Origin: Thiobacillus denitrificans
GTDB taxonomy: Bacteria > Pseudomonadota > Gammaproteobacteria > Burkholderiales > Thiobacillaceae
Direction of reading: 5' to 3'
Length of the DNA: 64,000 nucleotides
Assembly (NCBI GenBank): GCA_020723405.1
Contig: DYIY01000006.1
Span: 124,001 to 188,000, forward strand
A program made the translations under genes and the position numbers. Shown in pieces: positions 2,797-64,000 of the stretch. Within the stretch, counting starts at the first letter, position 1; the number at the start of each line of letters is the position of its first letter. The notes below the pieces were generated by a model. That model did no database searches. It was not told where the DNA came from and was given only the letters and a program-made list of their open reading frames with translations.

Positions 2797-3982
2797 TTTG
2801 CCGGATGCCCGTGGGCACTTCGGTCCCTACGGCGGCGTGTTCGTGGCCGAGACCCTCATGGCGGCCCTGGACGAATTGCGCCGGGAATACGAGGCCGCCC
2901 GCCAGGATCCGGACTTCCTGGCCGAATTCCGCCACGAGCTGCGCCATTACGTGGGCCGGCCCAGCCCCATCTACCACGCCAGGCGCTGGTCGGAAAAGTT
3001 GGGCGGCGCCCAGATCTACCTGAAACGGGAGGACCTGAACCACACCGGCGCCCACAAGATCAACAACACCATCGGTCAGGCCCTGCTGGCCCGGCGCATG
3101 GGCAAGAAACGGGTCATCGCCGAGACCGGGGCCGGCCAGCACGGCGTGGCCTCCGCCACGGTGGCCGCCCGCTACGGCATGGAATGCGTGGTGTACATGG
3201 GTGCCGAGGACGTGCAGCGCCAGTCGCCCAACGTGTTCCGCATGAAGCTCCTGGGGGCCACCGTGGTGGCCGTGGAGTCCGGTTCCAAGACACTCAAGGA
3301 CGCCCTGAACGAGGCCATGCGCGACTGGGTCACCAACGTGGAATCCACCTTCTACATTCTGGGCACGGCTGCCGGGCCCCATCCCTATCCCATGCTGGTC
3401 CGGGACTTCCAGTGCGTCATCGGCGACGAGTGCAAGGTGCAGATGAACGAGATGCTGGGCCGCCAGCCGGACGCGGTCATCGCCTGCGTGGGGGGCGGCT
3501 CCAACGCCATCGGCATCTTCCACCCTTACATTCCCGTGGAAGGCGTGCGTCTGATTGGCGTGGAAGCGGGCGGCGACGGCATCGCCAGCGGCCGCCACGC
3601 CGCGCCCCTGTCGGCGGGGACGCCCGGGGTGCTGCACGGCTTCCGCAGCTACCTCATGCAGGACGCCAACGGCCAGGTCATCGAGACCCATTCCGTGTCC
3701 GCCGGCCTGGATTACCCGGGCGTGGGGCCGGAACACAGCTGGCTCAAGGACAACGGCCGGGCCGAATACGTGGCCATCAACGACGACGAGGCCCTGGCGG
3801 CCTTCCACGACCTGTGCCGCTACGAGGGCATCATTCCCGCCCTGGAATCCAGCCATGCCCTGGCCCATGCGGCCAAGCTGGCCCCTACCCTGGACAAGGA
3901 CAAGGTGCTGCTGGTGAACCTGTCCGGCCGGGGCGACAAAGACATCAACACCGTGGCCCGCCTGGCGGGCATCCAGCTGTAA
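2783..3982 (+). CDS. trpB: Tryptophan synthase beta chain
   Basis: TrpB condenses indole and serine using pyridoxal phosphate, in complex with TrpA. The 399-residue product has the PLP-lysine motif [10 protein letters not shown] (Lys92), the glycine-rich phosphate cradle [10 protein letters not shown], and the LSGRGDKD end typical of the family. Two ATGs lie two codons apart (2783 and 2789); a GGAAG sequence near 2771 fits either. Unusually for trpBA, 241 bp separate it from trpA, and these hold an inverted-repeat element described separately. Confidence 0.97.
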
Positions 3983-49229: not shown

Positions 49230-51299
49230 TCAGGCAACAGCCGGCTTGTGGCCCCGCACGGCCGTCGGCTCGTCGAGCATCCGCACGTCCTCCAGCCCCC
49301 ATTGCCGGAACCAGCCCGCCACTTCCTCGTTGCCGTGGGTCCAGTGGTAGGTGGGGGTGTAGCCGTCGAACAGGGCCAGTACGCTGCGCTGGGCGGTGGG
49401 GTGGTGGGTGGCGAAGGGAAACTGGCGGATGAAGGCTTCCATCCAGGGGGTGTCCCGGCGGGGCCGGGCCAGGTCGATGATCCACTCGCACCAGGCCTGG
49501 AAGGCGGTGGGCGGCAGGCGGGAGACCAGGGGTGTCCATTCGCCCCGGCGCTGGAACTTGGGCGGGTAGACCCAGAGGGCCAGGGTTCCGCCTGGCTTGA
49601 GCAGGGGCAGCAGCCGTTCCGCGTGGGCCCGGGTGTCGGGGGTGTGGTGCAGCACGCCGATGGAGTAGATGAGGTCGAAGCTCTCCGGGGCGAAGGGCAG
49701 GGCGCCGATGTCGGCCTGCATGACCAGGGCGTTGGGGAAGGAGGCCAGGTTGTCCCGGGCGGTTTCCACGGCTTCCGACAGGTCCACCCCCACCACCCGG
49801 GCGCCCCAGCGGGCCAGCACTTCCGCGTGGCGGCCGGTGCCCACGCCGGCATCCAGCACCAGTTTGCCGGCCACTTCCCCGGGGCTGAGGCCGGTCTTCA
49901 GCACCAGGTCCTGTTCCGTCAGGTCCACGCCCTGCTGGCTGTCCAGCTGGGTGTCGGTATAGGTGGTCCACTGGAAGGAGAAGGAGGCCGCGTAGTGGTC
50001 CGAGGCCACGAAGCGGGCGATGCCGCGTACCACCGGGGCCTGGCTGTCCTGGACGATGGGGAGAAGTTCATTCACCCGGTCGATGAAGGCCGGGTCCAGG
50101 GGTTTGCCGATGAGCGCGGGCCAATCCGGGGCCAGTCCGGTGGGGGTACCGGCCGGCACGGTTGCCTGGGGCGGGGGGAGGGCGGGGTCCGGCAGGTCCG
50201 GACAGGGGCTGACCCGGGCGCGGATCTGATCGCCTTCGGGGGCGAAGTTCATGGTCAGGGTCGGCGGCGCCGCAGGGCCTGCCAGGGCGTCCAGGAGGCC
50301 CTGCCGGTCCGCCGGGTCCAGGGACACGGCCAGGCCCAGGGTGTCCAGGTCCGCCAGCAAGCCGCCCAGCCAGGTCCGGGCTGCGTCGCCACCGCCGCAA
50401 CAGGCGGCCAGTTCCCGGACCAGGGCGTCCAGGCAGGCCAGTTCCAGGCGGGCGCCGGTCCAGCATCCGTCCCGGGATTCGCTGCGCCAGGACAGCAGCC
50501 GCCGGCCGCCAGCGAAGGCTTCCAGGCCGGTGAGGCGGGGCTGGAAGGGCTGGGCCAGGGTCAGCGCCAGGCCCAGTTGGTCCAGGGCCAGGGGGCCCCA
50601 GGTGGCGTCGGCCAGGTCGGCCCGGACCCGCCAGGTTCCGCCGGCCTGCTCCAGGGTCACGGCGACCCGGGCGGCGGTCAGCTCCGGCAGTCCGGCGGCG
50701 GCGAGGCCCAGCCTTACCTCCGTCAGTTCCAGTCGGCGGGAATCCGGGATTTTCTGGCTGCCCAGGGCCAGGGCCTTGCCCAGCATCAGTTGCAGCTTGG
50801 CCAGGGCGTAGGCCGCCGGGTTGGGGAAGGTGGCCTTCAACTGGGCCAGCTTGGACAGGGCGCCGAACAGTTCCGGATTGCCGCCCAGACCGTCGATCAG
50901 GTGGTACTGGTGGGGCTTCTGGGCCAGGTCGGCGTTGTCGCTGGGGGCGAAGAAGAGCTTGCGCCCCACGTGGACCCAGCGGCCCTGGCCCTGGCTGGCA
51001 ATCTTCTTCACCGAGGTGCAATGGGGCAGGGGCAGGGGGCGTCCGTCTTCCAGCAGCAGCAGGGTGGTGCGCCCCATCTCGTCGCTGCAGAAGTCCTCCT
51101 CCAGGGTCAGGCTGTAGGACAGGGGGCTGGCCCGTTGCAGCCCGCTCAGGGGCAGGGCCCGGGGCCCGGTCCACCAGGACTTGAGCAGCAGGGCCAGGGC
51201 GCCCCGGTCGTTGCGCCGGGGCTTCAGCACCCGGTCATAGAAGCCCAGCAGGGCGCCGGAGACGAGGAACAGGGGAAAGAGTGGTCGGGATTCGGACAT
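49230..51299 (-). CDS. Large protein with C-terminal SAM methyltransferase domain
   Basis: A 689-residue protein of cluster B. Residues about 475-580 are a class I methyltransferase (LDAGVGTGRHAEVLARWGARVVGVDLSE; SIGVLHHTPD; KPGGTLALWVYP). The first 340 residues are not recognised. They begin with a hydrophobic stretch (7-20) and include Leu-rich alternating strands around 188-265. A Pro/Ala linker lies at 366-395. Such methyltransferases act in glycan or natural-product loci. It is the last gene of the minus-strand run, 148 bp after the dioxygenase gene, with dispersed repeats between. Confidence 0.75.
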   Translation of the reverse strand: MSESRPLFPLFLVSGALLGFYDRVLKPRRNDRGALALLLKSWWTGPRALPLSGLQRASPLSYSLTLEEDFCSDEMGRTTLLLLEDGRPLPLPHCTSVKKIASQGQGRWVHVGRKLFFAPSDNADLAQKPHQYHLIDGLGGNPELFGALSKLAQLKATFPNPAAYALAKLQLMLGKALALGSQKIPDSRRLELTEVRLGLAAAGLPELTAARVAVTLEQAGGTWRVRADLADATWGPLALDQLGLALTLAQPFQPRLTGLEAFAGGRRLLSWRSESRDGCWTGARLELACLDALVRELAACCGGGDAARTWLGGLLADLDTLGLAVSLDPADRQGLLDALAGPAAPPTLTMNFAPEGDQIRARVSPCPDLPDPALPPPQATVPAGTPTGLAPDWPALIGKPLDPAFIDRVNELLPIVQDSQAPVVRGIARFVASDHYAASFSFQWTTYTDTQLDSQQGVDLTEQDLVLKTGLSPGEVAGKLVLDAGVGTGRHAEVLARWGARVVGVDLSEAVETARDNLASFPNALVMQADIGALPFAPESFDLIYSIGVLHHTPDTRAHAERLLPLLKPGGTLALWVYPPKFQRRGEWTPLVSRLPPTAFQAWCEWIIDLARPRRDTPWMEAFIRQFPFATHHPTAQRSVLALFDGYTPTYHWTHGNEEVAGWFRQWGLEDVRMLDEPTAVRGHKPAVA

Positions 51300-51447: not shown

Positions 51448-52155
51448 TCAATCCACCAGGAACAGGTTGTACAGCAGCAGATCCCGGGGCCGCTCCGGCG
51501 CTTCCACCGGCTCCACCCCGTGGAAGGCGTTGTCGGTGCGGATGAAGCCGAACAGGGAATTGGGCAGGAAGGGGGTGGTGGCCAGGGCGGTGAAATCCTC
51601 CCGGGGATGATGGGGGCCGCCCGGGCAACGGAAGGCCGGGTCATTGGGTACGTAGGCGGTGGTGCCCAGGTGGCGCTGGCTGTCGTCCCGGGGCAGGTAG
51701 AAGAGCAGGGCCAGGACCTTCTCGGCCATGTCCGTGTGGGGGGGCAGGGCATAGCGGGTGAAGTCCCGCAGCAGGCGGGCGTCCTTGAGCAGCCGCTTGC
51801 GGCCCAGGGCCTCCCCCCACTGGCGGGTGATGAAGGGGCGGAACTTGCTCAGCATGGCGTTGGCGAAGCGGCTGCCCAGCAGCCAGTCGGCGGTGGTCCG
51901 CCAGACTTCCGGCACCTGGGCCTGGCCTTCCCCCAGGGAAAGGATCAGCCGGTCGTTGCTGTTGTCCTGGCCTACTGTGCCGTATTCCTGGATGGGGGTG
52001 TAGGCGGCATCCGCCGGCAGGGCGTCGATGAGGGCCTGATAGACGTCCGGAGGAAAAATGTCGGTGACGTGGAAATGGGGAAAGGGCCAGGTCTGCACCT
52101 CGGCGTTCATGAGCCGGTAGAGGACCGCCATTTCCGTGGCATAGGCGTCGTTCAT
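51448..52155 (-). CDS. 2-oxoglutarate/Fe(II)-dependent dioxygenase-like protein
   Basis: A 235-residue protein with the iron-ligand pattern His140-x-Asp142 (PPHTDMA) and His212 (FHGVEP), plus Arg224 for 2-oxoglutarate. This is the prolyl-4-hydroxylase/PHYH-type fold. It could hydroxylate a sugar, lipid or protein residue; the substrate is unknown. The start is ATG 52155, overlapping the FkbM stop by ATGA, so the two are coupled. Part of cluster B. Confidence 0.8.
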   Translation of the reverse strand: MNDAYATEMAVLYRLMNAEVQTWPFPHFHVTDIFPPDVYQALIDALPADAAYTPIQEYGTVGQDNSNDRLILSLGEGQAQVPEVWRTTADWLLGSRFANAMLSKFRPFITRQWGEALGRKRLLKDARLLRDFTRYALPPHTDMAEKVLALLFYLPRDDSQRHLGTTAYVPNDPAFRCPGGPHHPREDFTALATTPFLPNSLFGFIRTDNAFHGVEPVEAPERPRDLLLYNLFLVD

Positions 52156-52925
52156 GTCTTGATTTCCCGGCTGAACAGCCATTCCCCCACCCCGGCGAAG
52201 GGGCCGTCCGGGCGGCTGGCGGCCCGGGCCTGGTCCGGGTCGTGGCGGTAGCCCAGGGTCGCCAGTTCCTCCACCATGGCCCGGTGCTCGGCCAGGTGGG
52301 GGTTCACCTCGATGAGCAGTTCCGCCACGCCGCCTGTAGCCAGGGTGGCCCGGGCGCCGGCGATGACCTTGTGCTCGAAGCCGTCCACGTCGATCTTGAC
52401 GTAGCGGGGCACCGGCAGGGCGCCGTCGGCCACGGCGGCATCCAGGGTCCAGCTCACCGAGCCCTGGGCGAAGGCGGCGGGGCGGGGGCGCAGGTTGAAG
52501 TCCACTTCTTCCCCCTGGCTGTGGCAGGAGGCGCCGGTGGCGAATTCGGAGAGGAAGAGCCGGTCCAGGCCCACCCGGTCCACCAGGGCGCAGGGGTAGG
52601 CGGTGATCCGCTCCCCCAGGCCGTTAGCCTGGATGTTGCGATTGAGCAGGGCCCAGTTCTGGGATTCCGGTTCGAAGGCGTACACCCGGCAGCGCCGGGC
52701 CGTGGCCGCGTAGAGGCTGTAGAGGCCGATATTGGCGCCCACATCCAGCAGCACCGAACCTTCCTCCAGGCCGTTGAGCCAGCGGATGGTGTGGGGTTCC
52801 TTGCTGTAGAGGGTCTGCACCCGGGCCAGGCAAAGGCGGTTGGGGGTCTTGAACACCACCCGGCCGCCCTCGGCGGTCTTCAGGGCCACCAGGGGGTCCA
52901 GCTTTTCGTATTGGCCCAGGTCCAT
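52152..52925 (-). CDS. FkbM-family SAM-dependent methyltransferase (cluster B copy)
   Basis: A 257-residue class I methyltransferase with motif I LLDVGANIGLYSLY (about residues 59-72), VYAFEPES, and the FkbM signature YVKIDVDGFEHKVIAGA. Its length and layout match the FkbM gene of cluster A, suggesting related O-methylation roles. It lies 3 bp after the TylF-like gene and overlaps the dioxygenase gene. Confidence 0.87.
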   Translation of the reverse strand: MDLGQYEKLDPLVALKTAEGGRVVFKTPNRLCLARVQTLYSKEPHTIRWLNGLEEGSVLLDVGANIGLYSLYAATARRCRVYAFEPESQNWALLNRNIQANGLGERITAYPCALVDRVGLDRLFLSEFATGASCHSQGEEVDFNLRPRPAAFAQGSVSWTLDAAVADGALPVPRYVKIDVDGFEHKVIAGARATLATGGVAELLIEVNPHLAEHRAMVEELATLGYRHDPDQARAASRPDGPFAGVGEWLFSREIKT

Positions 52926-52928
52926 GGT

Positions 52929-53711
52929 TCAGCGCTTGATGTACAGCCCCTGGCCGGTGGGGCTTTCCCAGACCAGTTCCCCCCGGGCCCGGAAGAATTC
53001 CCGTTCGCCCACGTGGGACAGGCGGTAGCGCTTGAAGCCGAAATCGTCGAACACGATCATGCCCCCGGGGGTGAGGCGCTCCACCACGGCGGGCAGCACG
53101 GCCAGTTCCGGTTCGGCGGCGTTGAGATCGATCTGGGCGAAGGCGATCTTCTCCGGCAGGCCCTGTTCGAAGCTGCCGGGCACGGCGCCCTTGATGACCC
53201 GGAAGTTGCCCAGGGGCTCGAAATAACTGCGCACCTGATCGTAGAGCTGGGGCCCGTGGCCGGACTTCTTCGCTTCCTGGGGCGGATTGTCGAAGATGTC
53301 GTAGAGCCACCAGGTCTTGCCGGCCATCTGGCGGAAATCGCAGAAGCGTTCCATGACCTCCACGGTCTTGCCGTCGTAGCAGCCCAGGTCCACGAAGTCC
53401 CCGTCCACCGCCAGGCAGCTGCGGGCGCTCCAGCATAGGGTGTAGATGCGCCAGATCCGGGCCAGCAGGATGGGGTCCTTGGCGTGGGGCCCCATGGCGC
53501 GGATGAAGTCGATGTCCTCCAGGAAACCCAGGTTGCGGTACCAGACCATCATGTCGTCGTGGGCCGCCGCGCCGCTGCCCGGCTGGTTCAGGCCCAGCAT
53601 CTGGGCCATGGCCTGGACGTGCATGATGAACAGGTTCTTCACCAGGGGGTTGTCGAAGGGGGGCTTGGTGAATTCCTTGTTGAACAGGGCGAAGTTGGGC
53701 GTGAGGCTCAT
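52929..53711 (-). CDS. TylF/MycF-like SAM methyltransferase
   Basis: A 260-residue protein with the SAM motif FVDLGCYDGKTVEVM (about residues 107-121), the IDLNAAEPEL segment, and TPGGMIVFDDFGF, which resembles the metal-binding Asp pair of TylF/MycF sugar O-methyltransferases. The N-terminal 100 residues are helical and less typical. It is followed after 3 bp by the FkbM gene, and preceded by a 116-bp spacer with a dispersed repeat. Confidence 0.72.
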   Translation of the reverse strand: MSLTPNFALFNKEFTKPPFDNPLVKNLFIMHVQAMAQMLGLNQPGSGAAAHDDMMVWYRNLGFLEDIDFIRAMGPHAKDPILLARIWRIYTLCWSARSCLAVDGDFVDLGCYDGKTVEVMERFCDFRQMAGKTWWLYDIFDNPPQEAKKSGHGPQLYDQVRSYFEPLGNFRVIKGAVPGSFEQGLPEKIAFAQIDLNAAEPELAVLPAVVERLTPGGMIVFDDFGFKRYRLSHVGEREFFRARGELVWESPTGQGLYIKR

Positions 53712-53827: not shown

Positions 53828-56800
53828 TCATGCCTCGGCATCCGTGGTTTTGAGGAGTTTCTGGAGTTCGCCCAGCACAGCCTCCGGTAGCGGTCCGGCG
53901 GCCAGGGCCTGGCGGGCCTGACTGCTGGCCTGCTGCCAGTCGCCTTCGATGCGGAAGGCCTGGAGGGCCAGCAGGGCCTGGGCCAGGGCATGGCGGGGGT
54001 TCGCCGCCAGCAGGGTCTGGCAGAGGTTCTTGCCGGCGGCGTAGTGGCGCTCGGCCAGGAGCCGGCTCCAGCCCTGGATCAGGGCTTCGGCGTCGGGTTC
54101 GCCATGGGCCTGGCCGGCGGCCAGGAGCAGGTCGGCCAGGGGCCAGCCGGGCAGGTTGCGCTCCAGGGTGTAGCGGCGCAGGAAGGCGAATTCCTTGGCG
54201 GTGCCCTTGAAGTGGACCACCTGCCTGGCCAGCAGGTCGCGCAGGCCGTCGGAGGGGCCGGGCTTGTGGTTGTAGTCGGCGCAGGGCAGGTAGAGCATCC
54301 GGGTGCCGTCCAGTTCGCGGACCTCCCCGGCCTCCGGATAGCTGCCGTCCCAGCCCACGCTGTTCAGGGAGAGCTGGCCGCCCCGCCATTTCTTGATGCC
54401 GTGGGGATAGCGGGCCTGGACGTCCGGGTCTTGCGCCAGTTGCTCGTAGGTGGCCAGGTAGCCGTTGTAGAAGGCCCGCACCCGCTCGGGCCGGCGCCGG
54501 GAGGCGGCCTGGACCCCTTCGTTGAGCACCATGGCCGGGTCGGGGCGGAAGGTGGCCAGCACGTCGAAATCCCCGTCCAGCACGGCGCGGAAATCGTTGC
54601 CCACGAAGGCGTCGGAATCCAGGAACAGGGTGGTGGCGGTGAAGGCCGGGGAGTTCACGTAGGCGGCCATGGCCCGCACCCGCTGGTACATGGGCTCGTC
54701 CTTGTCCACGTCCAGGCGCACCACGTGGCTGAAGCGGTGGCCCGGGGGTTCCGGGCTGTCCCGGTCGGTCACCAGGATCACGTTGGCGCCGGGGAAGAAG
54801 CCGGCGGCGGCGTGGGAGAAGTAGGCCAGGATGTAGTCGTAGTCGAACTTGCGGTGGTCCAGGCCCTTGATGTCGAAGGTCTCGATGGGCCGGTAATCGG
54901 CATCCACCCGGGTGTGGTAGGTGAACACGTTGACCGGGGCCGGCTCCACCCCGGCGGCGGCGAAGTCGGCGATGAGGCCCGCGATGCCCGGCGGCGGGGC
55001 GTCCAGGCGGCGGGGCAGAGGCTTGGCCAGGATGTCCAGGATGTCCCGGCCGTGGACCGGGGCGTTGTCTTCCCGGGCGAAGTTCACGCCGCGGACTTCC
55101 CGGGCGCCGGCGGATTCCCTGTCGGGCCGGGCGTAGACCTTCTCCAGCCACTGGTTGAGGACGATGACCGCCCAGACGATGTTGTTGTTGGCCTGGGGCA
55201 GCAGGGCCCGCAGCCGCCTTACGTCCAGCACCCGGGCCAGGGCCGAGCCGTCGTGGACCGCTTCGGCCAGTTGGCCGCCGAAGAAATCCGCGTGGGCCTT
55301 GAGGAAGGCGGGGGGCATGCCGAAGCCGGTCTTGCGCCGGTCCACCCATTCCGCCGGCAGGTATTTCTTGAGGATGTGGCGGAGCAGGAACTTGCCCTTG
55401 CCGTCGGCCAGGTGGCTGGCCAGGGGGATGCGCCCGGCCAGCCGGGCGATGGCCAGGGCCAGCAGGGGCGCGCGCACCTCCAGTCCGTGGGCCATGCTCA
55501 TGCGGTCCACCTTGGCCAGCACGGCGCCGGGCAGGTAGCTGTTGGCGTCCAGCATGCGCAGGGTGTCGATGGTGCCCCGGGCCGGGGCCATGCTGCCCAG
55601 GATGGCGGCATAGATGTCCTGGAAGCGATCCGGCAGGCCACCGAACAGTTTCACCAGTTGTTCCAGGGGCATCACCGGCAGGAAGCGCTCGAAGTACTGG
55701 GGCGCCAGCTGGGCCGGGGTGAGGCCATCCCCCAGGGCCGCCTGGGCGCCGAAATAGCGGCCGTAGCCGGCGAACAGTTCGTCGCCCCCGTCCCCGGACA
55801 GGGCCACGGTGATGTCCTGGCGGGCGAAGCGGGACAGGAGCCAGGTGGGCACGCAGGAGCGGTCCCCGTTGGGCTCGTCCAGGATCTGCCCCATGCGTGC
55901 CGCCACGTCCAGCAGGTCGGCGTGGCTCACCTGGTGGCAATGGTGGGTGGTGCCCAGGACCTGGGCGATGCGCGCCGCGTCCTCGTGCTCCGACTCGCCG
56001 CCGTCGAAGGCGATGGTGTAGGTGTTGAGGGGGATGCCCAGCTTCTGCGTGGCCAGGGCGCAGACCAGGGAGGAATCCACGCCGCTGGACAGGAAGGCCC
56101 CCAGGGGCACGTCGCTCACCAGGCGGGACTTCACCGCCTGGACCAGTTCATTTTCCAGCACCTCGGCGATCTGCCGGGGGTCCGTGAGGGGCAGGTTCTG
56201 CGGAAGCTGGAAGGCGAAGTGGCGCTTCTTCTCCAGCCGGCCTTCCCCGTCCAGGGTGAGCAGGCAGCCCGGCTCCAGCTTGCGGATGTCGCGGAACAGG
56301 CTGAAGGGCTGGGGCACGTAGCGGAAATGCAGGTAGGCCGCCAGTTCCGCCCCTTCGATGGGGCCGTCGAACAGGCCCGAGGCCAGGATGGCGGACAGTT
56401 CCGAGGCGAACAGGAAGCAGTCGGGGCCGTCCCAGTAGTAGAGGGGCTTCTCGCCGAAGGCGTCCCGGGCCAGGAGCAGGGTGCGGCTGGCCGGGTCGTA
56501 GTGGCCGAAGGCGTACATGCCGTCCAGCAGGGGAATGGCCTGTAGGCCCTGGCGGCCCAGCAGGGTCAGCAGCACCTCCGTGTCGGTCTGGGTGCGGAAG
56601 GTTTCGCCGGACCGTTCCAGGCCCCGGCGCAGTTCCTGGTAGTTGTAGATCTCGCCGTTGAACACCAGGGCCCGGGTGTCGCTGGAATCGGCCATGGGCT
56701 GGTGGCCGGCGGCGCTGACGTCGATGACCGACAGGCGCCGGTGGCCCAGCACCGCCCGGCCGTCGGCGGAGGCCCACAGGCCCGCGTCATCCGGTCCCCG

Positions 56801-56896
56801 GTGGGCGATGGCATCGGTCATGCGGGCCACGGCGGCGCGCCGTTCCTCCGCCGCCAGCTTGCCGCGCTTGTCGATGAGACCCGCAATGCCGCACAT
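53828..56896 (-). CDS. asnB: Asparagine synthetase-like / glycosyltransferase-like / helical fusion protein
   Basis: A 1022-residue fusion. Residues 1-210 form the class II glutaminase domain with Cys2 nucleophile (MCGIAG) and NGEIYNY. Residues about 240-590 form the AsnB synthetase domain with the ATP-binding motif SSGVDSSL (270-277) and LSGDGGDELFAGYGRY. Residues about 650-915 are not AsnB: they have a GT-A-like pattern with LFLDSDAFVGNDF (DSD at 760-762) and YNHKPGPSD. Residues 925-1022 are TPR-like helices. AsnB-like enzymes amidate carboxyls, including in glycan modification. Usual AsnB is about 600-650 residues, so the C-terminal 400 are the novelty. It heads the minus-strand run, divergent from the TPR gene at 56969. 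Confidence 0.85.
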   Translation of the reverse strand: MCGIAGLIDKRGKLAAEERRAAVARMTDAIAHRGPDDAGLWASADGRAVLGHRRLSVIDVSAAGHQPMADSSDTRALVFNGEIYNYQELRRGLERSGETFRTQTDTEVLLTLLGRQGLQAIPLLDGMYAFGHYDPASRTLLLARDAFGEKPLYYWDGPDCFLFASELSAILASGLFDGPIEGAELAAYLHFRYVPQPFSLFRDIRKLEPGCLLTLDGEGRLEKKRHFAFQLPQNLPLTDPRQIAEVLENELVQAVKSRLVSDVPLGAFLSSGVDSSLVCALATQKLGIPLNTYTIAFDGGESEHEDAARIAQVLGTTHHCHQVSHADLLDVAARMGQILDEPNGDRSCVPTWLLSRFARQDITVALSGDGGDELFAGYGRYFGAQAALGDGLTPAQLAPQYFERFLPVMPLEQLVKLFGGLPDRFQDIYAAILGSMAPARGTIDTLRMLDANSYLPGAVLAKVDRMSMAHGLEVRAPLLALAIARLAGRIPLASHLADGKGKFLLRHILKKYLPAEWVDRRKTGFGMPPAFLKAHADFFGGQLAEAVHDGSALARVLDVRRLRALLPQANNNIVWAVIVLNQWLEKVYARPDRESAGAREVRGVNFAREDNAPVHGRDILDILAKPLPRRLDAPPPGIAGLIADFAAAGVEPAPVNVFTYHTRVDADYRPIETFDIKGLDHRKFDYDYILAYFSHAAAGFFPGANVILVTDRDSPEPPGHRFSHVVRLDVDKDEPMYQRVRAMAAYVNSPAFTATTLFLDSDAFVGNDFRAVLDGDFDVLATFRPDPAMVLNEGVQAASRRRPERVRAFYNGYLATYEQLAQDPDVQARYPHGIKKWRGGQLSLNSVGWDGSYPEAGEVRELDGTRMLYLPCADYNHKPGPSDGLRDLLARQVVHFKGTAKEFAFLRRYTLERNLPGWPLADLLLAAGQAHGEPDAEALIQGWSRLLAERHYAAGKNLCQTLLAANPRHALAQALLALQAFRIEGDWQQASSQARQALAAGPLPEAVLGELQKLLKTTDAEA

Positions 56897-56968: not shown

Positions 56969-59065
56969 ATGACCGCAGCCCCCGGCAATCCGGATTTCTC
57001 CCAGGCATTGGACCAGGCCCGGAACTACCTTCAGGCCGGCCGGCCGGCCCTGGCCGAGATGGTGTGCCAGCAGGTGCTGGCCCGGGCGCCCGATCACGTA
57101 GGCGCCCTGCACCTGGGGGCCCTGGCCGCCTTTGCCCAGGGGCGCGGGGAGGCCGCCCTGGACCTGCTGGCCCGGGCCGTGGCCCTGGCTCCCGAATCCC
57201 CAGAACTGCGCAATGACCAGGGGGAACTGCTGCGCGCCGCCGGCCTGCTCGACCAGGCCCTGGCCGCCTTCCGCACGGCCCTGGTCCTACGCCCGGACTT
57301 CCCGGAAGCCCACAACAACCTGGGCGTGGCCCTGGGCCAGGCGGGACATGGCGAGGCGGCCCTGGCGAGCTTCCGCGCCGCCCTGGCCGCCCGGCCCGAC
57401 TACCCGGAGGCCCGCTTCAACCTGGCGGTCAGCCTGGCGGACCTGGGCCGTCACGAGGAGGCCCTGCCCTGGCTGGAACAGGTGGTGGCCGCCAGCCCAG
57501 GCAACGCCGTGGCCCGGGAGCGCCTGGCCCATGCCTGCCTGGCCCTGGAACGCCAGGATGAAGCCGTGGACCATTTCCGCGAACTGACCCTTCTGCTCCC
57601 CGACAACTTTGATGCCTGGTACGCCCTGGGGGGCCTGGAGCAGCGGCGCAAACATCCGGAGGAGGCCCTGGCGGCCCTGGAGCGGGCGGTGGTCCTGAAG
57701 CCCGAACATCCCTGGGCCCGCTTCCATCTGGGCATGGTGCTGGACGACCTGGAACGCTGCGAGGACGCCCTGGCCCAGATGCGCGAGTCCGACCGCCTGG
57801 CCCCGGACAATCCGCCCACCCTGGTGCGCATGGCCGTGCTGCTGCGCAGCCTGCGCCGCCTGGACGAAGCCGAAACCCTGGCCCGCCGGGCCCTGGAGCT
57901 CAAGCCCGGGGACATGCACGCCCTCAACGCCCTGGGGCTGGTGCAACTGTCCCGCCAGGCCTGGGACCAGGCCTCGGCGGCCTTCATGGCGGCCGCCGAC
58001 GCCCGCCCGGACCTGGCCCTGCCCTACGTGAACATGGCCAGCCTCTACGGCCTGAAGGGCGACTTCGGGATGCGCAAGCACTACTTCGGCCTGGCCCTGG
58101 AGCGGGCCCCCGGGGACGACCAGATCCGCTTCTCCTACGCCATCACCCAGTTGCTGCTCTCCGAGTGGCGGGAGGCCTGGCGCAACTACGCCCACCGGCC
58201 CAACATCACCCGCACCGCCGACTATGACCTGCTGGAGGCACCCCTGCCCATGGATCTTGCCGGCAGGCGCATCCTCATCCAGATGGACCAGGGCCTGGGT
58301 GACGAACTCCTGTTCCTGCGCTTCGCGCCGGTTCTCAAGGCCCGGGGGGCCTGGCTGGCCTACCGGCCCAACCCCAAGCTGGCCAGCTTCGTGGGCAAGC
58401 TGCCTTTCCTGGACATGGTGGTGAGCCACCGCATGGCGCCGGACAACCTGGACTACCGGGTGGCGGTGTGCGACCTGGCCCTGGCGGTGGACGTGGCCGA
58501 TGCCGCCGATATACCGCCGCCGGTGGCCCTGGTGCCCTCGCCGGGGGCCCTGGGCCAGGCCCGCCGCTTGCTGGCGCCCCTGGGCGAGGGGCCCTTCCTG
58601 GGCGTCACCTGGCGGGGCGGCACCTCCCGGGAAGAGTTCTCCAAGTGGAACGTGCTCTACAAGGAGATCGACCTGGATCTGCTGGCCGGCACCCTGGCTG
58701 ACGTGCCGGGCACGGTGCTGGTCCTGCAACGCAAGCCCCGGCCCGGCGAGATCGAGCGCTTTGCCGCCCGCCTGGACCGGCCGGTCCACGACCTGAGCGC
58801 CGTCAACGAACAACTGGAAGTGATGCTGGCGCTTCTGTCCCTGATCGACGAGTATGTGGCGGTCAGCAATACCAACGTCCACCTCAGGGCCGGGGCGGGG
58901 CGCATCAGCCGGGTACTGATCCCCCATCCCCCCGACTGGCGCTGGATGGCGGCCGGCCGCAGCCCCTGGTATCCCGACATTCCGACCTACCGGCAAGCTC
59001 CCGGCGGCGGCGGCTGGGGCGATGCCCTGGCCGCCCTGGGCCGGGACCTGTCGTCCCATAGTTAA
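56969..59065 (+). CDS. TPR protein with C-terminal glycosyltransferase-like domain
   Basis: A 698-residue protein. Residues about 10-390 are some ten TPR repeats (pattern A-x-N-N-L-G-x-A, ALxLxPDxPEA). Residues 430-680 resemble the GT9/OGT-like (GT-B) fold: MDQGLGDELLFLRF (439-452), LGVTWRGG (544-551), and SNTNVHLRAGAG (633-644). Proteins of this design glycosylate other proteins, including flagellins and adhesins, or fill a related role. The start is ATG 56969; upstream open frame overlaps the divergent fusion gene. It is 13 bp from the second TPR gene, so one operon. Confidence 0.8.
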   Translation: MTAAPGNPDFSQALDQARNYLQAGRPALAEMVCQQVLARAPDHVGALHLGALAAFAQGRGEAALDLLARAVALAPESPELRNDQGELLRAAGLLDQALAAFRTALVLRPDFPEAHNNLGVALGQAGHGEAALASFRAALAARPDYPEARFNLAVSLADLGRHEEALPWLEQVVAASPGNAVARERLAHACLALERQDEAVDHFRELTLLLPDNFDAWYALGGLEQRRKHPEEALAALERAVVLKPEHPWARFHLGMVLDDLERCEDALAQMRESDRLAPDNPPTLVRMAVLLRSLRRLDEAETLARRALELKPGDMHALNALGLVQLSRQAWDQASAAFMAAADARPDLALPYVNMASLYGLKGDFGMRKHYFGLALERAPGDDQIRFSYAITQLLLSEWREAWRNYAHRPNITRTADYDLLEAPLPMDLAGRRILIQMDQGLGDELLFLRFAPVLKARGAWLAYRPNPKLASFVGKLPFLDMVVSHRMAPDNLDYRVAVCDLALAVDVADAADIPPPVALVPSPGALGQARRLLAPLGEGPFLGVTWRGGTSREEFSKWNVLYKEIDLDLLAGTLADVPGTVLVLQRKPRPGEIERFAARLDRPVHDLSAVNEQLEVMLALLSLIDEYVAVSNTNVHLRAGAGRISRVLIPHPPDWRWMAAGRSPWYPDIPTYRQAPGGGGWGDALAALGRDLSSHS

Positions 59066-59078
59066 AAAGGAGACACCC

Positions 59079-61676
59079 ATGAGCACCCCCAAGGTCGTCA
59101 ACGTCCAGGAAGCCCTGGAGATCGCCGGCAGGCTCCATGACGACGGCCGCCTGGATGAGGCGGAGGCGGTCTATCAGAAGGCCCTCATGGGCGAACCCAA
59201 CAACCCCGAGGCCCTCCACGGCCTGGGGGTGCTCATGATCCAGTGGGGCCAGCCGGACCAGGCGGTGCCCCTGCTCAACAAGGCATTGGCCAGCCGGCCC
59301 GACTACCCCCTGGCCCTCAGCCACCTGGGCTGCGCCTATCAGGCCCTGGGCCAGAACGACCAGGCCCTGGCGGCCTACCAGCAGGCGGTGGTGGCCGACC
59401 CGGCCTTCGTGGAGGGTTGGAACAATCTGGCCATTGCCCTGGCCGGCAACGGCCGCCTGTCCGAGGCGGAAGAGAAGCTGCGCCACGCCATCCGCCTGTG
59501 GCCCGAATACGCCAAGGCCTGGGACAACCTGGGGGTGCTGTTGCAGCAGCAGGGGCGGCTGTCCGAGGCCCTCCAGGCCTATGAACACTCCATCAAGCTG
59601 GACGGCGGAAACCCGGAATCCGTGGAGAATTTCAGGAACGCCCTCATGCTGGCCGGCGATGCGGAGAACTTCGTGGCCCGCTTCGAGGGGGAGCTGAAGC
59701 AGGCGGTGGCCAGCTACGAAGAAACCCTGACCCAGCATCCCCAGGTGGCGGAGGCCCACAACAACCTGGGCAACGCCCTGAAGGAACAACACCGCTACGC
59801 CGAGGCCATCGCCCACTACAAGCTGGCCACGGCCCTGCGCCCGGACTATACCGCCCCCCTCAACAACTGGGGCGTGGCCCTCCAGGAGATGGAGCAGCCC
59901 GCCGAGGCCATCCCCTTTTACGAAGCGGCCCTGGCCACCAAACCCGACGACGCCCTGGTGCACAGCAACCTGGCGGCGGCCCTCATGGAACTGGGGCGCA
60001 TCGAGGAAGCCCTGGACCATCTGGAGGCCTCGGTGTACCTCAACCCGGATTACCCGGAATCCCGCTACAACCTGTCCCTGGCCCTGCTCAATCTGGGACG
60101 CCTCCAGGAAGGTTGGCGGCATTACATCTACCGGGGTTCGGAAAAGCAGCGCAACAATGCGGCGCCATTCCTGGAACGCCCCCTGCCCGCCGACATGAGC
60201 GGCAAGCGGGTCCTGCTCACCCGCAACCAGGGTATCGGCGATGAACTGTTCTTTCTGCGCTTCGCTGCCATGCTCAAGAACCGGGGCGCCTGGGTGGCCT
60301 ACCGGGCCGCCGACAAGATTGCCCCCATCGCCCGCCGGCTGCCCTTCCTGGATCAGGTGGTGGGACGCCACGAAACCCCACCGGATCTGGACCACCTGTT
60401 CTCCATCGGCGATCTGCCCCTGGCCCTGGGGGTCAACGACCTGTCCCAGGTGCCCCTCAGCGTGAGCCTTACCCCACCGGCCGAGGCGGCACAAAGGGTG
60501 GACGCCCGGCTGGCCTTGCTGCCTCCCGGGGACGAGCCCCTGATCGGCGTCACCTGGCGGGCCGGGGCCGACAAGAGCGATCCGGAAACCCGCAAGTCCC
60601 GGTTGCCATTCAAGGAAATTCCCCTGGAAACCCTGGCCGACATCCTCCGTGGCCTGCCCGGCAAGGTGTTGATCCTGCAACGCCATCCCAAGCCGGGGGA
60701 GGTGGAGGCCTTTGCCGCCGCCCTGGGCCGTCCGGTGCACGATTTCGCCGACCTGAACGAGGATCTGGACCAGATGCTGGCCCTGATGGCCCGCCTGGAT
60801 GAATACGTGGGGGTGAGCAACACCAACACCCACCTGCGGGCCGCCGTGGGGCGGGCTTCCCGGGTGCTGGTGCCGGCCAACATCCTGGACTGGCGCTGGA
60901 TGAGCGAGGGGGAGCGCTCCCCGTGGTTCCCCGAGTGCCGGGTTTACCGGCAGACGCCGGAGGGGAGCTGGCTGGGGGCCAGCCTGTTGCTGCGCGACGA
61001 TCTCCAGGCTCGTCACCAGGGAGGGGGCGAGGCCCACAGCCGGCCAGCCTACAGTCGCGCCCATCCCAGCCCCCTGTACGGGGCCCTGCTGGCACTCTAC
61101 GGCCGCATGCATGCCGCCGACCCGGAGGTTTTTGCCGGCAAGTCGGTATTTTTTGCCGCTTCCCCCATCCGGGACCTGGTGGAACGTCTGGGGGCCCGCA
61201 CCCTGCTGGATTACGGCAGTGGCAAGGGGAGCCAATATGCCCCCGGCAACATTTCCCTGCCCGGCGTGCCGGGAGTCTGGCCCGGCCTGAAGGAATACTG
61301 GGGCGTGGAGTCGGTCACCTGCTTCGAGCCTGCTGCCGGACCTGGGGCGGTGCCGCCCGAGGGCCAGTGGGACGGGGTCATCTGCGTGGATGTGCTGGAG
61401 CATTGTGGGGCGGAGGACCTGCCCTGGATCGTGGATGAACTGTTCGCCCTGGCCCGCCGCTTCGTCTTTGCCAACGTGGCCAGCTATCCGGCCGCCAAGC
61501 TTTTGCCCAACGGCGACAATGCCCACGTCACCCAGCGCCGGGAGGGCTGGTGGCGGTCCCTGTTTGCGGCGGCGGCGGCCCGCCACCCTGGCATCCAGTG
61601 GACTCTGGGCGTGGATCGCATCGTCGTGGAAAAGGGTGAGAAGCAGGTTCGGGAGCATCGGGTCTCCGGCAGCTGA
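59079..61676 (+). CDS. TPR / glycosyltransferase-like / methyltransferase fusion protein
   Basis: An 865-residue paralogue of the previous gene with an extra domain. TPR repeats cover about 8-345. The glycosyltransferase-like part (375-630) repeats the neighbour's motifs: RNQGIGDELFFLRF (382-395), IGVTWRAG (489-496), SNTNTHLRAAVG (580-591). Residues about 660-850 add a SAM methyltransferase-like domain with LLDYGSGKGSQY (709-720) and DVLEHC (771-776). AAGGAG at 59067-59072 fixes the start at 59079. The adjacency of glycosyl- and methyltransfer functions suggests a methylated sugar. It ends at a terminator just before the flagellin gene. Confidence 0.8.
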   Translation: MSTPKVVNVQEALEIAGRLHDDGRLDEAEAVYQKALMGEPNNPEALHGLGVLMIQWGQPDQAVPLLNKALASRPDYPLALSHLGCAYQALGQNDQALAAYQQAVVADPAFVEGWNNLAIALAGNGRLSEAEEKLRHAIRLWPEYAKAWDNLGVLLQQQGRLSEALQAYEHSIKLDGGNPESVENFRNALMLAGDAENFVARFEGELKQAVASYEETLTQHPQVAEAHNNLGNALKEQHRYAEAIAHYKLATALRPDYTAPLNNWGVALQEMEQPAEAIPFYEAALATKPDDALVHSNLAAALMELGRIEEALDHLEASVYLNPDYPESRYNLSLALLNLGRLQEGWRHYIYRGSEKQRNNAAPFLERPLPADMSGKRVLLTRNQGIGDELFFLRFAAMLKNRGAWVAYRAADKIAPIARRLPFLDQVVGRHETPPDLDHLFSIGDLPLALGVNDLSQVPLSVSLTPPAEAAQRVDARLALLPPGDEPLIGVTWRAGADKSDPETRKSRLPFKEIPLETLADILRGLPGKVLILQRHPKPGEVEAFAAALGRPVHDFADLNEDLDQMLALMARLDEYVGVSNTNTHLRAAVGRASRVLVPANILDWRWMSEGERSPWFPECRVYRQTPEGSWLGASLLLRDDLQARHQGGGEAHSRPAYSRAHPSPLYGALLALYGRMHAADPEVFAGKSVFFAASPIRDLVERLGARTLLDYGSGKGSQYAPGNISLPGVPGVWPGLKEYWGVESVTCFEPAAGPGAVPPEGQWDGVICVDVLEHCGAEDLPWIVDELFALARRFVFANVASYPAAKLLPNGDNAHVTQRREGWWRSLFAAAAARHPGIQWTLGVDRIVVEKGEKQVREHRVSGS

Positions 61677-61869: not shown

Positions 61870-62688
61870 ATGAAGGAAATCGCACTGACCGCATCCATGC
61901 GGTCCAACGTGGTCAGCCTCCAGCTCACGGAGGCACTGATCAACCGGACCCAGGACCGTCTGGCTACCGGCAAGCGGGTCAACAGCGCCCTGGACAACCC
62001 CACCAACTTCTTCGTGGCTGCCCGCCACACCCAACGGGCCAACGACCTGGTGGGCCGCAAGGACTCCATGGGTGAGGCCATCCAGACCATCAAGGCCGCA
62101 GACGTGGGTATCTCCGGCATCAAGACCCTGCTGGAGTCCGCCAAGGGCCTGGTGGAATCCGCCCGTTCCGCCACCACTGCGGACCGTTCCGCCCTGGGCA
62201 CCCAGTTCAGCCAGATCCTGCTGAAGATCAACGATCTGGTGGAAGACTCCGACTACAAGGGGGTCAACTATCTGGAGAACGGTTCTTTGACCGTGCTGTT
62301 CAACGAGGACGGTACCAATGCCCTGACCGTGACCGGCTTCACCGCCAACGTGGGGGTGTCCGGCCTGGGGGTGGTGGCTTCCGGTGCCGACATCTCCGGC
62401 GGTGGCTCTGCGCTGGATTCTGCTTCCTCCCAGATCACGGTGGCGCTGACCACCCTGACCACCCAGGCTTCCATCCTGGCCAGCAACCTGTCTGTGATCA
62501 GCGGCCGCCTGGATTTCACCACCGACCTGGTGAACGTGCTGAAGGAGGGCGCAGACAAGCTGACCCTGGCGGACATGAACGAGGAAAGCGCCAACATGCT
62601 GGCCTTGCAGACCCGCCAGAACCTGGGCGTGACCTCTCTGAGCCTGGCCTCCCAGGCCGCCCAGTCGGTACTGCGTCTGTTCGGCTAA
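61870..62688 (+). CDS. Flagellin, short alphaproteobacterial type
   Basis: A 272-residue flagellin with only the conserved D0/D1 parts. The N-terminus (LTASMRSNVVSLQLTEALIN, RTQDRLATGKRVNSALDNP) and C-terminus (MLALQTRQNLGVTSLSLASQ, SVLRLFG) match the short flagellins best known from Alphaproteobacteria. A small variable central part (about 140-190) is the likely surface region and is rich in Ser/Thr/Gly, suitable for O-glycosylation. AAGGAG (61858-61863) precedes the ATG. It is followed by flaF and a second, closely similar flagellin. Confidence 0.93.
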   Translation: MKEIALTASMRSNVVSLQLTEALINRTQDRLATGKRVNSALDNPTNFFVAARHTQRANDLVGRKDSMGEAIQTIKAADVGISGIKTLLESAKGLVESARSATTADRSALGTQFSQILLKINDLVEDSDYKGVNYLENGSLTVLFNEDGTNALTVTGFTANVGVSGLGVVASGADISGGGSALDSASSQITVALTTLTTQASILASNLSVISGRLDFTTDLVNVLKEGADKLTLADMNEESANMLALQTRQNLGVTSLSLASQAAQSVLRLFG

Positions 62689-62796: not shown

Positions 62797-63174
62797 ATGG
62801 AGATGAACATGCAAGTGGCCATGGACGTGGAAAAGCTCGATGGCAGCGAGGAAGCCCGGGAACTGGAGGCCGCCTTGCTGGTGCGGGCCGCCCTCATGCT
62901 CAAGGAATGCCAGGACGAGTGGGGCCGGGACGGCCACGAGTCCCGCCTGGACGAGGCGCTGAAATTCAACCAGCGGTTGTGGACCGTGTTCCAGACCGAG
63001 TTGTCCAGCAACGACAACCCCCTGCCCGAGGAACTGCGCCGCAACCTCCTCAATCTGTCCTGGTTCGTGGACAAGCGCACTTTCGAAACCATGGCCAACC
63101 CGGTGGCCAGCAACCTCAAAGTCCTCATCGACATCAACCGTCACATCGCCGAGGGCCTGGCCGGCCAGGCCTGA
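62797..63174 (+). CDS. flaF: Flagellin assembly/regulatory protein FlaF
   Basis: A 125-residue cytoplasmic protein. The segment LDEALKFNQRLWTVFQTEL and the following NLSWFVDKRTF match FlaF, which in Caulobacter works with FlbT and flagellins to couple flagellin synthesis and secretion. FlaF is typical of Alphaproteobacteria, so its presence with this flagellin type suggests co-transfer. AAAGGGG (62784-62790) precedes ATG 62797; ATG 62803 is an alternative. The 108-bp spacer from the flagellin gene holds GC-rich hairpins but no clear promoter. No flbT is in the window. Confidence 0.88.
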   Translation: MEMNMQVAMDVEKLDGSEEARELEAALLVRAALMLKECQDEWGRDGHESRLDEALKFNQRLWTVFQTELSSNDNPLPEELRRNLLNLSWFVDKRTFETMANPVASNLKVLIDINRHIAEGLAGQA

Positions 63175-63360: not shown

Positions 63361-64000
63361 ATGGCAGCAACAGTCGCCCTGACCGCCTCCATGCGGTCCA
63401 ACGTCGTCAGCCTGCAACTGACGGAAACCCTCATCAACCGTACTCAGGATCGCCTGTCCACCGGCAAGAAGGTGAACAGCGCCCTGGACAACCCCACCAA
63501 CTTCTTCGTGGCCGCCCGCCACACCCAACGTGCCAACGACCTTCTGGGCCGCAAGGACACCATGGGTGAAGCGATCCAGACCATCAAGGCCGCCGACGCT
63601 GGCATCACCGGCATCAAGACCCTGCTGGAATCCGCGAAAGGTCTGGTCGAATCCGCCCGTTCCGCCACCACGGCAGACCGCTCGGCCCTGGGTACCCAGT
63701 TCAGCCAGATCCTGCTGAAGATCAACGACTTGATCGAAGATGCGGACTACAAGGGCACCAACTATCTGGAAAACGGTTCCCTCACCGTGCTGTTCAACGA
63801 GGATGGTTCCAACGCCCTGACCATCACCGGCTTCACTGCCAACGTGGGTGCTTCCGGCCTGGGTGTGGCCGCTTCCGGCGCCGATATCTCCGCCGGTGGC
63901 ACCTCTCTGGACGCCGCCGCCTCCCAGATCACCGTGGCCCTGACCACCCTGACCACCCAGGCCTCCATCCTGGCCAGCAACCTGTCCATCGTTTCCGCCC
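63361..64000 (+). CDS. Second flagellin, short type (3' end outside window)
   Basis: The first 213 codons of a flagellin beginning MAATVALTASMRSNVVSLQL. It is nearly identical to the first flagellin over the visible length, with differences mainly at the N-terminus (MAATVA for MKEIA) and scattered conservative changes such as TGKKV for TGKRV and ADISAGG for ADISGGG. AAGGAG at 63348-63353 precedes the ATG. It is controlled by sigma-28, whereas the first copy has a sigma-54 promoter, so the two are probably made at different times. The gene runs off the end of the window. Confidence 0.93.
   Translation, partial: MAATVALTASMRSNVVSLQLTETLINRTQDRLSTGKKVNSALDNPTNFFVAARHTQRANDLLGRKDTMGEAIQTIKAADAGITGIKTLLESAKGLVESARSATTADRSALGTQFSQILLKINDLIEDADYKGTNYLENGSLTVLFNEDGSNALTITGFTANVGASGLGVAASGADISAGGTSLDAAASQITVALTTLTTQASILASNLSIVSA

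Follow-up and report, generated by a model that had tools for sequence, protein, structure and literature searches.

The question raised by this locus is what a single bacterial protein would do with a glutamine-dependent synthetase of the AsnB type in its N-terminal part and a putative glycosyltransferase (GT) behind it. The gene lies on the minus strand of a 64,000-nucleotide stretch of Thiobacillus denitrificans DNA (contig DYIY01000006.1, positions 124,001 to 188,000; the whole stretch is called the window here, and its features are collected in Table 1). An initial annotation, in which the strand was unstated, had read the product as a triple fusion of AsnB, glycosyltransferase and a tail resembling tetratricopeptide repeats (TPR). 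We propose, with a probability of about one half, that the protein is a natural fusion of a conserved two-enzyme module which amidates a sugar acid and transfers the sugar in a cluster resembling those for filament glycosylation.

Whether there is one protein at all was answered from the reading frame, which is uninterrupted over 1022 codons on the minus strand and interrupted by stops when the same stretch is read on the plus strand. Third-position GC content is 0.89-0.96 in 16 of 17 segments of 80 codons each, the AsnB/GT junction included, and 0.82 in the last, C-terminal segment. Between residues 527 and 736 there is no ATG, and an internal restart is possible at GTG codons, the first of them at residues 604 and 650. 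The even composition across the junction, together with the ATG-free segment, gives no sign of a frameshift or mis-join, and the fusion is real as a single uninterrupted frame. An assembly error, a doubt raised in the initial annotation, was rejected as the origin of the fusion on account of the continuous coding composition at the junction and the pairing of the same two families at other loci.

Judged by its sequence, the first part (residues 1 to about 590) is a complete AsnB-type glutamine-dependent synthetase, as the initial annotation had it. This half scores 429.3 bits against TIGR01536 (curated cut-off 267.1), and the motifs present in the fusion are Cys2 (MCG), SSGVDSSL, GDGGDELFAGYGR and FLDSDAF with D760-S761-D762. 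The catalytic and PP-loop positions C2, N80-G81, D105, S270-G272-D274-S275, D369 and D372-E373 are invariant in 8 aligned AsnB rows. Layout of glutaminase and synthetase, PP-loop and GDGGDELF are those of the glutamine-hydrolysing asparagine synthetases (TIGR01536, PF00733; E. coli AsnB, 1ct9; 7ylz). Scores against the XrtA/PEP-CTERM amidotransferase (TIGR03108, 425.1 bits, curated cut-off 816.9) and the N-acetylglutaminylglutamine amidotransferase (TIGR03104, 344.6 bits, curated cut-off 570.1) fall below the respective cut-offs. Carboxylates of other kinds are substrates for some members of the AsnB class: the nearest PDB chain by sequence is 7ylz, a hydroxyamidotransferase (E 3.5e-54), which is called trichostatin A-forming in the title of a reference within PMC11957118.

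The second half has no such ready name. The C-terminal 445 residues matched nothing in NCBIfam or, by sequence, in the PDB (one search with the C-terminal part gave no match and another gave three, with E 0.41 or worse), and the one Pfam match (E 0.2) is under its cut-off; residues 643-1022 had no match in PHROGs. The predicted structure points to a GT-A-fold glycosyltransferase domain at residues ~648-901: in the AlphaFold2 model built on a nine-row alignment of the family, block means of confidence for this domain are 66-98, mostly above 80, and a Foldseek search of the PDB gave 233 matches at E 0.001 or below, of which the 50 listed are glycosyltransferases without exception (top E 7.7e-7). 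Among the matches listed are a family 8 protein (3tzt), glycogenins, LgtC, and blood-group and alpha-1,3-galactosyltransferases, which we take to be GT-A folds. Query-normalised TM-scores are modest, up to 0.39, for which the tail within the model is partly responsible. The GT-A-like guess of the initial annotation is thus upheld by the predicted fold, and the profile and structure searches gave no sign of a known non-glycosyltransferase domain. Invariant in the nine rows are P-M-x-x-R, T-x-F-L-D-x-D-A, N-E-G-V and W-R-G-G-Q-L. Eight of the rows extend as far as the C-terminal end, and in these P-C...N and H-x-K-G-x-x-K come next.

A link to a known family was found through a distant relative (genome G816, locus L041/L046; E 4.3e-17), a member of the nucleotide-diphospho-sugar transferases PF03407 (27.4 bits, cut-off 22). 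Its profile aligns with the GT family over 255 columns at a probability of 98.7%, with the DxD and H-x-x-G-x-x-K motifs in register. PF03407 is reached from the GT family only via this bridging protein, however, and PF03407 itself had no match in the 9 GT-family proteins scanned (at E 1 or 0.5). Family GT8 (PF01501) and other GT-A enzymes are alike in predicted fold and motif order: comparison by hhalign with two GT8 members puts DxD, N-x-G-V, Q-x-x-L-N and H-x-x-G-x-x-K in the same order, at a probability of 0.9% (E 0.063). Membership in GT8 was rejected on that probability and on the lack of a PF01501 match at E 1 or better for the fusion protein and at 0.5 for eight relatives.

The pairing of the two domains was then followed through other genomes (loci and genomes carry our L and G numbers). 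Searched with the single sequence, a sample of 399 genomes from the order gave matches in 7, of which G300, G304 and G360 hold real relatives of the C-terminal domain and three, matched by the tail only, were not counted as GT carriers. A profile built from these relatives and the window retrieved seven loci from genome contigs, four of them new (L030, L031, L032 and L036), and one phage contig from viral contigs (L037, taken whole as L038). A search of 98 genomes of the family of G300 added G863 (L045) and the distant G816 protein, which was kept out of the count as a PF03407 member; the gene calls in its vicinity include no AsnB. In 26 genomes of the family of G304 the search gave the two known loci and no others, and only the window's own genome carried the GT domain among 23 genomes of its genus and in a phylum sample of 398 genomes. 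Single-sequence scans of genome and viral contigs and tblastn of phages and plasmids gave no relatives.

Nine loci besides the window were thus obtained, eight bacterial (L024, L025, L026, L030, L031, L032, L036 and L045) and one from a phage (L038). In all nine, the immediate neighbour of the GT gene is a separate, same-strand gene of the AsnB type, with a gap of -11 to +163 bp (starts chosen by hand); the contig end cuts AsnB in L045 and GT in L038. AsnB comes first in L025, L026, L030, L031 and L038, and GT in L024, L032, L036 and L045. The phage contig, of 6129 bases, carries small and large terminase genes followed by AsnB (phrog_16728, a family of unknown function) and GT. The two are fused only in the window (1/10 loci), so that the search for the same fusion in other genomes, suggested in the initial annotation, came back empty; fusions of GT to other partners occur in L032 (a TylF-type methyltransferase) and L036 (another methyltransferase). 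AsnB and GT form a conserved two-enzyme module, found mostly in clusters resembling those for filament glycosylation.

The AsnB proteins of this module also carry a mark of their own. The segment DEPNGDRSC is present in all nine readable GT-linked AsnBs (window and eight partners; in L045 the contig ends before it, and this locus was left out of motif count and tree) and absent from all 14 outgroup AsnB loci, ten of which have DEP[FY]xDxS at that place and four of which (L012, L014-L016) have no DEP-like segment. The first motif listing and the tree covered eight outgroup loci, all with DEP[FY]xDxS; L010 and L012-L016 had been lost to a motif filter, and all 14 were checked later. In the tree of the window domain, its eight partners (seven bacterial, one phage) and eight other AsnB-class proteins of related genomes, the nine linked proteins share one side of a branch supported in 100/100. 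A DNA pattern for the nine residues gave a single hit in each of four genomes among the 399 from the order; the identical four carry GT, whereas the reversed control pattern had no match among the rows listed. Two identical sets of four in 399 would arise at a chance of ~1e-9 if independent, but two of these genomes are from the same genus. One contig of the viral collection contains the signature, the one with the AsnB-GT pair. That an ordinary asparagine synthetase was joined to an unrelated domain by chance or by assembly error is therefore barely credible: it would fit a fusion seen in one locus of ten, a GT domain in one of 23 genomes of the genus and a TIGR01536 score above cut-off, but not the adjacency in 9/9 other loci, the co-occurrence in the same 4/399 genomes and the continuous junction.

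DEPNGDRSC aligns with VTTIRASTP of E. coli AsnB, which we take to be part of the aspartate/acyl-AMP region; a Thr and an Arg within it were presumably placed in aspartyl-AMP formation by mutagenesis, although our literature search found no paper on either point. The changed segment suggests a synthetase substrate other than aspartate, and a housekeeping asparagine synthetase was rejected for the AsnB half on the tree branch, the presence of DEPNGDRSC in the linked group and its absence from 14 outgroup loci. The same segment, which probably shifts substrate use, and the hydroxyamidotransferase 7ylz as nearest PDB chain would also suit a ligase that couples the sugar acid with some amine in place of ammonia (an amino acid or amino sugar), the product then being transferred by GT; within the AsnB class, the beta-lactam synthetases and hydroxyamidotransferases would be its analogues. 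We consider such a ligase unlikely: the intact glutaminase half, with no variation at its key positions across 8 rows, argues for ammonia as the nucleophile.

Fusion and strict adjacency indicate that AsnB and GT act in a common pathway. With the glutaminase intact, the product is presumably a carboxamide; and because the GT partner is expected to use nucleotide sugars, the simplest acceptor would be a sugar acid, whose amidation we consider the most probable chemistry of the module. The Cys2 glutaminase site would release ammonia from glutamine and pass it to the synthetase site, where ATP would turn the carboxylate of the sugar acid (either bound to a nucleotide, as a uronic or similar acid, or already part of the glycan) into an acyl-adenylate and then into a carboxamide. 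The GT-A domain, via its DxD motif, would move the sugar onto flagellin or its nascent glycan, and the methyltransferases and oxygenase-like protein of the cluster may add further decoration. Amidation may come before or after transfer, and the fusion may channel an intermediate. We infer that the carboxylate sits on the sugar, that amidation and transfer are consecutive, and that flagellin would be the target here. The wider proposal, of a new bifunctional enzyme and a larger two-gene family that installs a carboxamide on a sugar acid and brings the sugar to filament subunits, whether of flagella or of type IV pili, a phage having a copy of the pair for itself, is put forward tentatively.

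The genes around the fusion (Table 1) point to the glycans of filament proteins. A TylF-type methyltransferase gene lies 116 bases beyond the fusion gene on the minus strand, followed by further candidate modification genes; the HTD...H pattern of the oxygenase-like protein is presumably that of a 2OG-Fe(II) oxygenase. On the plus strand, two flagellin genes lie ~5 and 6.5 kb from the fusion gene, and the flagellin linkage suspected in the initial annotation holds for the window. From position 62797 on, two FlaF genes and one FlbT gene accompany the flagellins (797-1171, 3022-3417 and 3401-3805 of L027). FlaF and FlbT are typical of alphaproteobacteria; the records of several relatives carry betaproteobacteria or Burkholderiaceae labels.

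Table 1. Fusion gene, its parts and neighbouring genes, in window coordinates
Feature	Coordinates	Strand	Basis or remark
Whole fusion coding sequence, 1022 aa plus stop	53828..56896	minus	coding 53831-56896, stop codon 53828-53830
AsnB-type domain, residues 1-590: Ntn glutaminase (Cys2) and ATP-dependent synthetase (SSGVDSSL, GDGGDELF)	55127..56896	minus	TIGR01536, PF00733, PF13537, PF13522
DEPNGDRSC, residues 340-348, synthetase half; mark of GT-linked AsnB group	55853..55879	minus	alignment, DNA pattern scans
Linker, residues 591-647	54956..55126	minus	residues 591-616 with predicted local confidence (pLDDT) <50
Predicted GT-A-fold glycosyltransferase domain, residues 648-901	54194..54955	minus	alignment, AlphaFold2, PDB fold matches, profile comparison
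DxD motif D760-S761-D762	54611..54619	minus	both Asp invariant in 9/9 rows
Helical tail, residues 902-1022, weakly TPR-like	53831..54193	minus	predicted model, marginal sequence matches
TylF-type methyltransferase	52929..53711	minus	homologue adjoins AsnB in L024, fused to GT in L032 (52% identity)
FkbM-type methyltransferase	52152..52925	minus	homologue in L045 (G863)
Oxygenase-like protein, HTD...H pattern, no Pfam match	51448..52182	minus	homologues in L024, L045
689-aa protein, C-terminal Methyltransf_11	49230..51299	minus	methyltransferase homologues in L024, L025, L026, L030, L036
TPR protein with ~340-aa C-terminal domain, FlmG-like layout	56969..59065	plus	Pfam, locus comparison
Second TPR protein fused to C-terminal domain	59058..61676	plus	domain is a separate gene in L024, L045
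Flagellin gene	61870..62688	plus	second flagellin gene starts at 63361

Filament genes occur within ~7 kb of the module in 7/10 loci, window included: flagellin in the window, L025, L026 and L031, and a type IV pilin-like gene in L036, L045 and, as a contig-end fragment with the pilin methylation motif, L024. At the relatives the flagellin link accordingly stands for three loci, but with pilin-like genes at three others and one pair in a phage contig the module is not flagellin-specific. This closeness would also suit a synthetase whose target is a protein, namely an Asp or Glu carboxylate in the filament subunit, with GT acting on the same protein. To our knowledge, no search aimed at protein substrates having been made, the AsnB class acts on small molecules or, in the lasso-peptide cyclases, on the peptide's own carboxylate, and the lasso cyclase model gives the AsnB half only 176.3 of 525 bits, so that we regard amidation of the protein as highly improbable.

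A surface polysaccharide or small glycoside as the product of the cluster, its nearness to filament genes arising from shared genomic islands, is likewise doubtful. L032 with no filament gene, the phage contig L038, and L031, which adjoins apparent sugar-nucleotide genes (by eye) besides its flagellins, speak for such a product, as does a match of one TPR protein of the window to Wzy_C_2, the polysaccharide polymerase C-terminal model (33.3 bits, cut-off 28.5). That match covers the repeats, however, and is taken as a TPR cross-match; no other polymerase or flippase is among the matches listed for six neighbours, to which the search was confined. The module, moreover, lies near flagellin in some lineages and near pilin-like genes in others.

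Several points weigh against amidation of a sugar acid followed by its transfer in filament glycosylation. The AsnB domain exceeds the curated NCBI cut-off for plain asparagine synthase; the AsnB tree is in effect unrooted, its root drawn at the midpoint, and the window AsnB is a long branch in it, with 44% identity to the nearest row. G304 and G360 belong to the same genus, and the four-genome match therefore represents fewer than four independent events. The full-length structure model (predicted TM-score, pTM, 0.61) has a linker without structure and leaves the mutual orientation of the AsnB and GT domains unfixed, and its alignment put the first part of the GT rows wrongly onto the AsnB half. 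No filament gene was seen by eye in the 10 kb of L032, while L030 (5.3 kb) and L038 (6.1 kb) offer too little sequence for a judgement. No gene for nucleotide-uronic acid synthesis was present among the six neighbours scanned with Pfam, a window-wide search not having been made. The only possible hint is an epimerase-family gene divergent from GT in L036 (5909-6943); the nearest PDB chain to its product, 5u4q, is labelled dTDP-glucose 4,6-dehydratase, and a copy 58% identical to it lies on another contig of the window's genome.

Among known systems, the window AsnB differs from the asparagine synthetases in DEPNGDRSC, in being fused or (in its group) adjacent to GT, and in its methyltransferase-rich clusters. 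FlmG is the modular Caulobacter flagellin glycosyltransferase, the TPR part of which binds flagellin according to PMC7591256. The two TPR proteins encoded beside the fusion share with FlmG the layout of TPR plus C-terminal domain, and their genes adjoin those of flagellin, FlaF and FlbT. The domain of FlmG is reported there as GT-B-like, while the fusion protein combines a predicted GT-A domain with an AsnB domain and a weakly TPR-like tail. PMC2943079 lists wsfA, an "asparagine synthase homologue", as a gene of its own in a locus for S-layer glycosylation; by this description it is another AsnB-type gene in a protein glycosylation locus. No description of an AsnB-GT fusion, or of an AsnB-GT pair in flagellin or pilin glycosylation, was seen among the papers listed in searches of the open-access literature. 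The initial annotation knew of no protein of this design, for which separate-gene counterparts exist in all nine other loci. We regard the cluster as one of a known kind, for protein glycosylation, with an apparently new enzyme pair at its heart.

Through gene fusion and strict adjacency, an AsnB subgroup that has yet to be characterised is linked with an unassigned GT-A family into a single functional unit. The nine-residue signature locates this unit in raw DNA, and its predicted product is a methylated glycan of flagella or pili that bears an amide. Such genes pass the "asparagine synthase" cut-off and would be given that label, leaving the second half nameless.

The remaining part of the protein, the tail, is helical in the model at low confidence (pLDDT 39-71 by blocks) and has no Pfam match of its own. 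Its three marginal matches in genomes of the order (E 8.6e-4 to 9.3e-4) comprise one stretch that is TPR above the Pfam cut-off, one that is TPR-like below it and one that matches nothing. Of the triple fusion first described, the helical nature of the tail is retained; with its TPR character so weak, two fused enzymes followed by a helical tail are the more fitting description, and a docking role of this tail is conceivable.

Some features of the neighbouring genes may be added. The first 430 residues of the 689-aa protein have no Pfam match, and its end is a separate methyltransferase gene in five related loci. The C-terminal domains of both TPR proteins gave no credible glycosyltransferase match in Pfam, and nearly all listed PDB matches of the first TPR protein fall in the repeats. 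The C-terminal domain of the second has separate-gene counterparts in L024 (4068-4814) and L045 (4297-4956), which makes it a second fusion in the cluster. Five flagellin genes in two orientations lie just upstream of the pair in L031 (2331-7845; record labelled Halieaceae bacterium), one of which was checked with Pfam. In L025 (12202-17850) and L026 (1366-7008), flagellins of 1882 and 1880 residues are encoded upstream of the pair, with small open reading frames between, and these proteins carry Flagellin_N and Flagellin_C at opposite ends.

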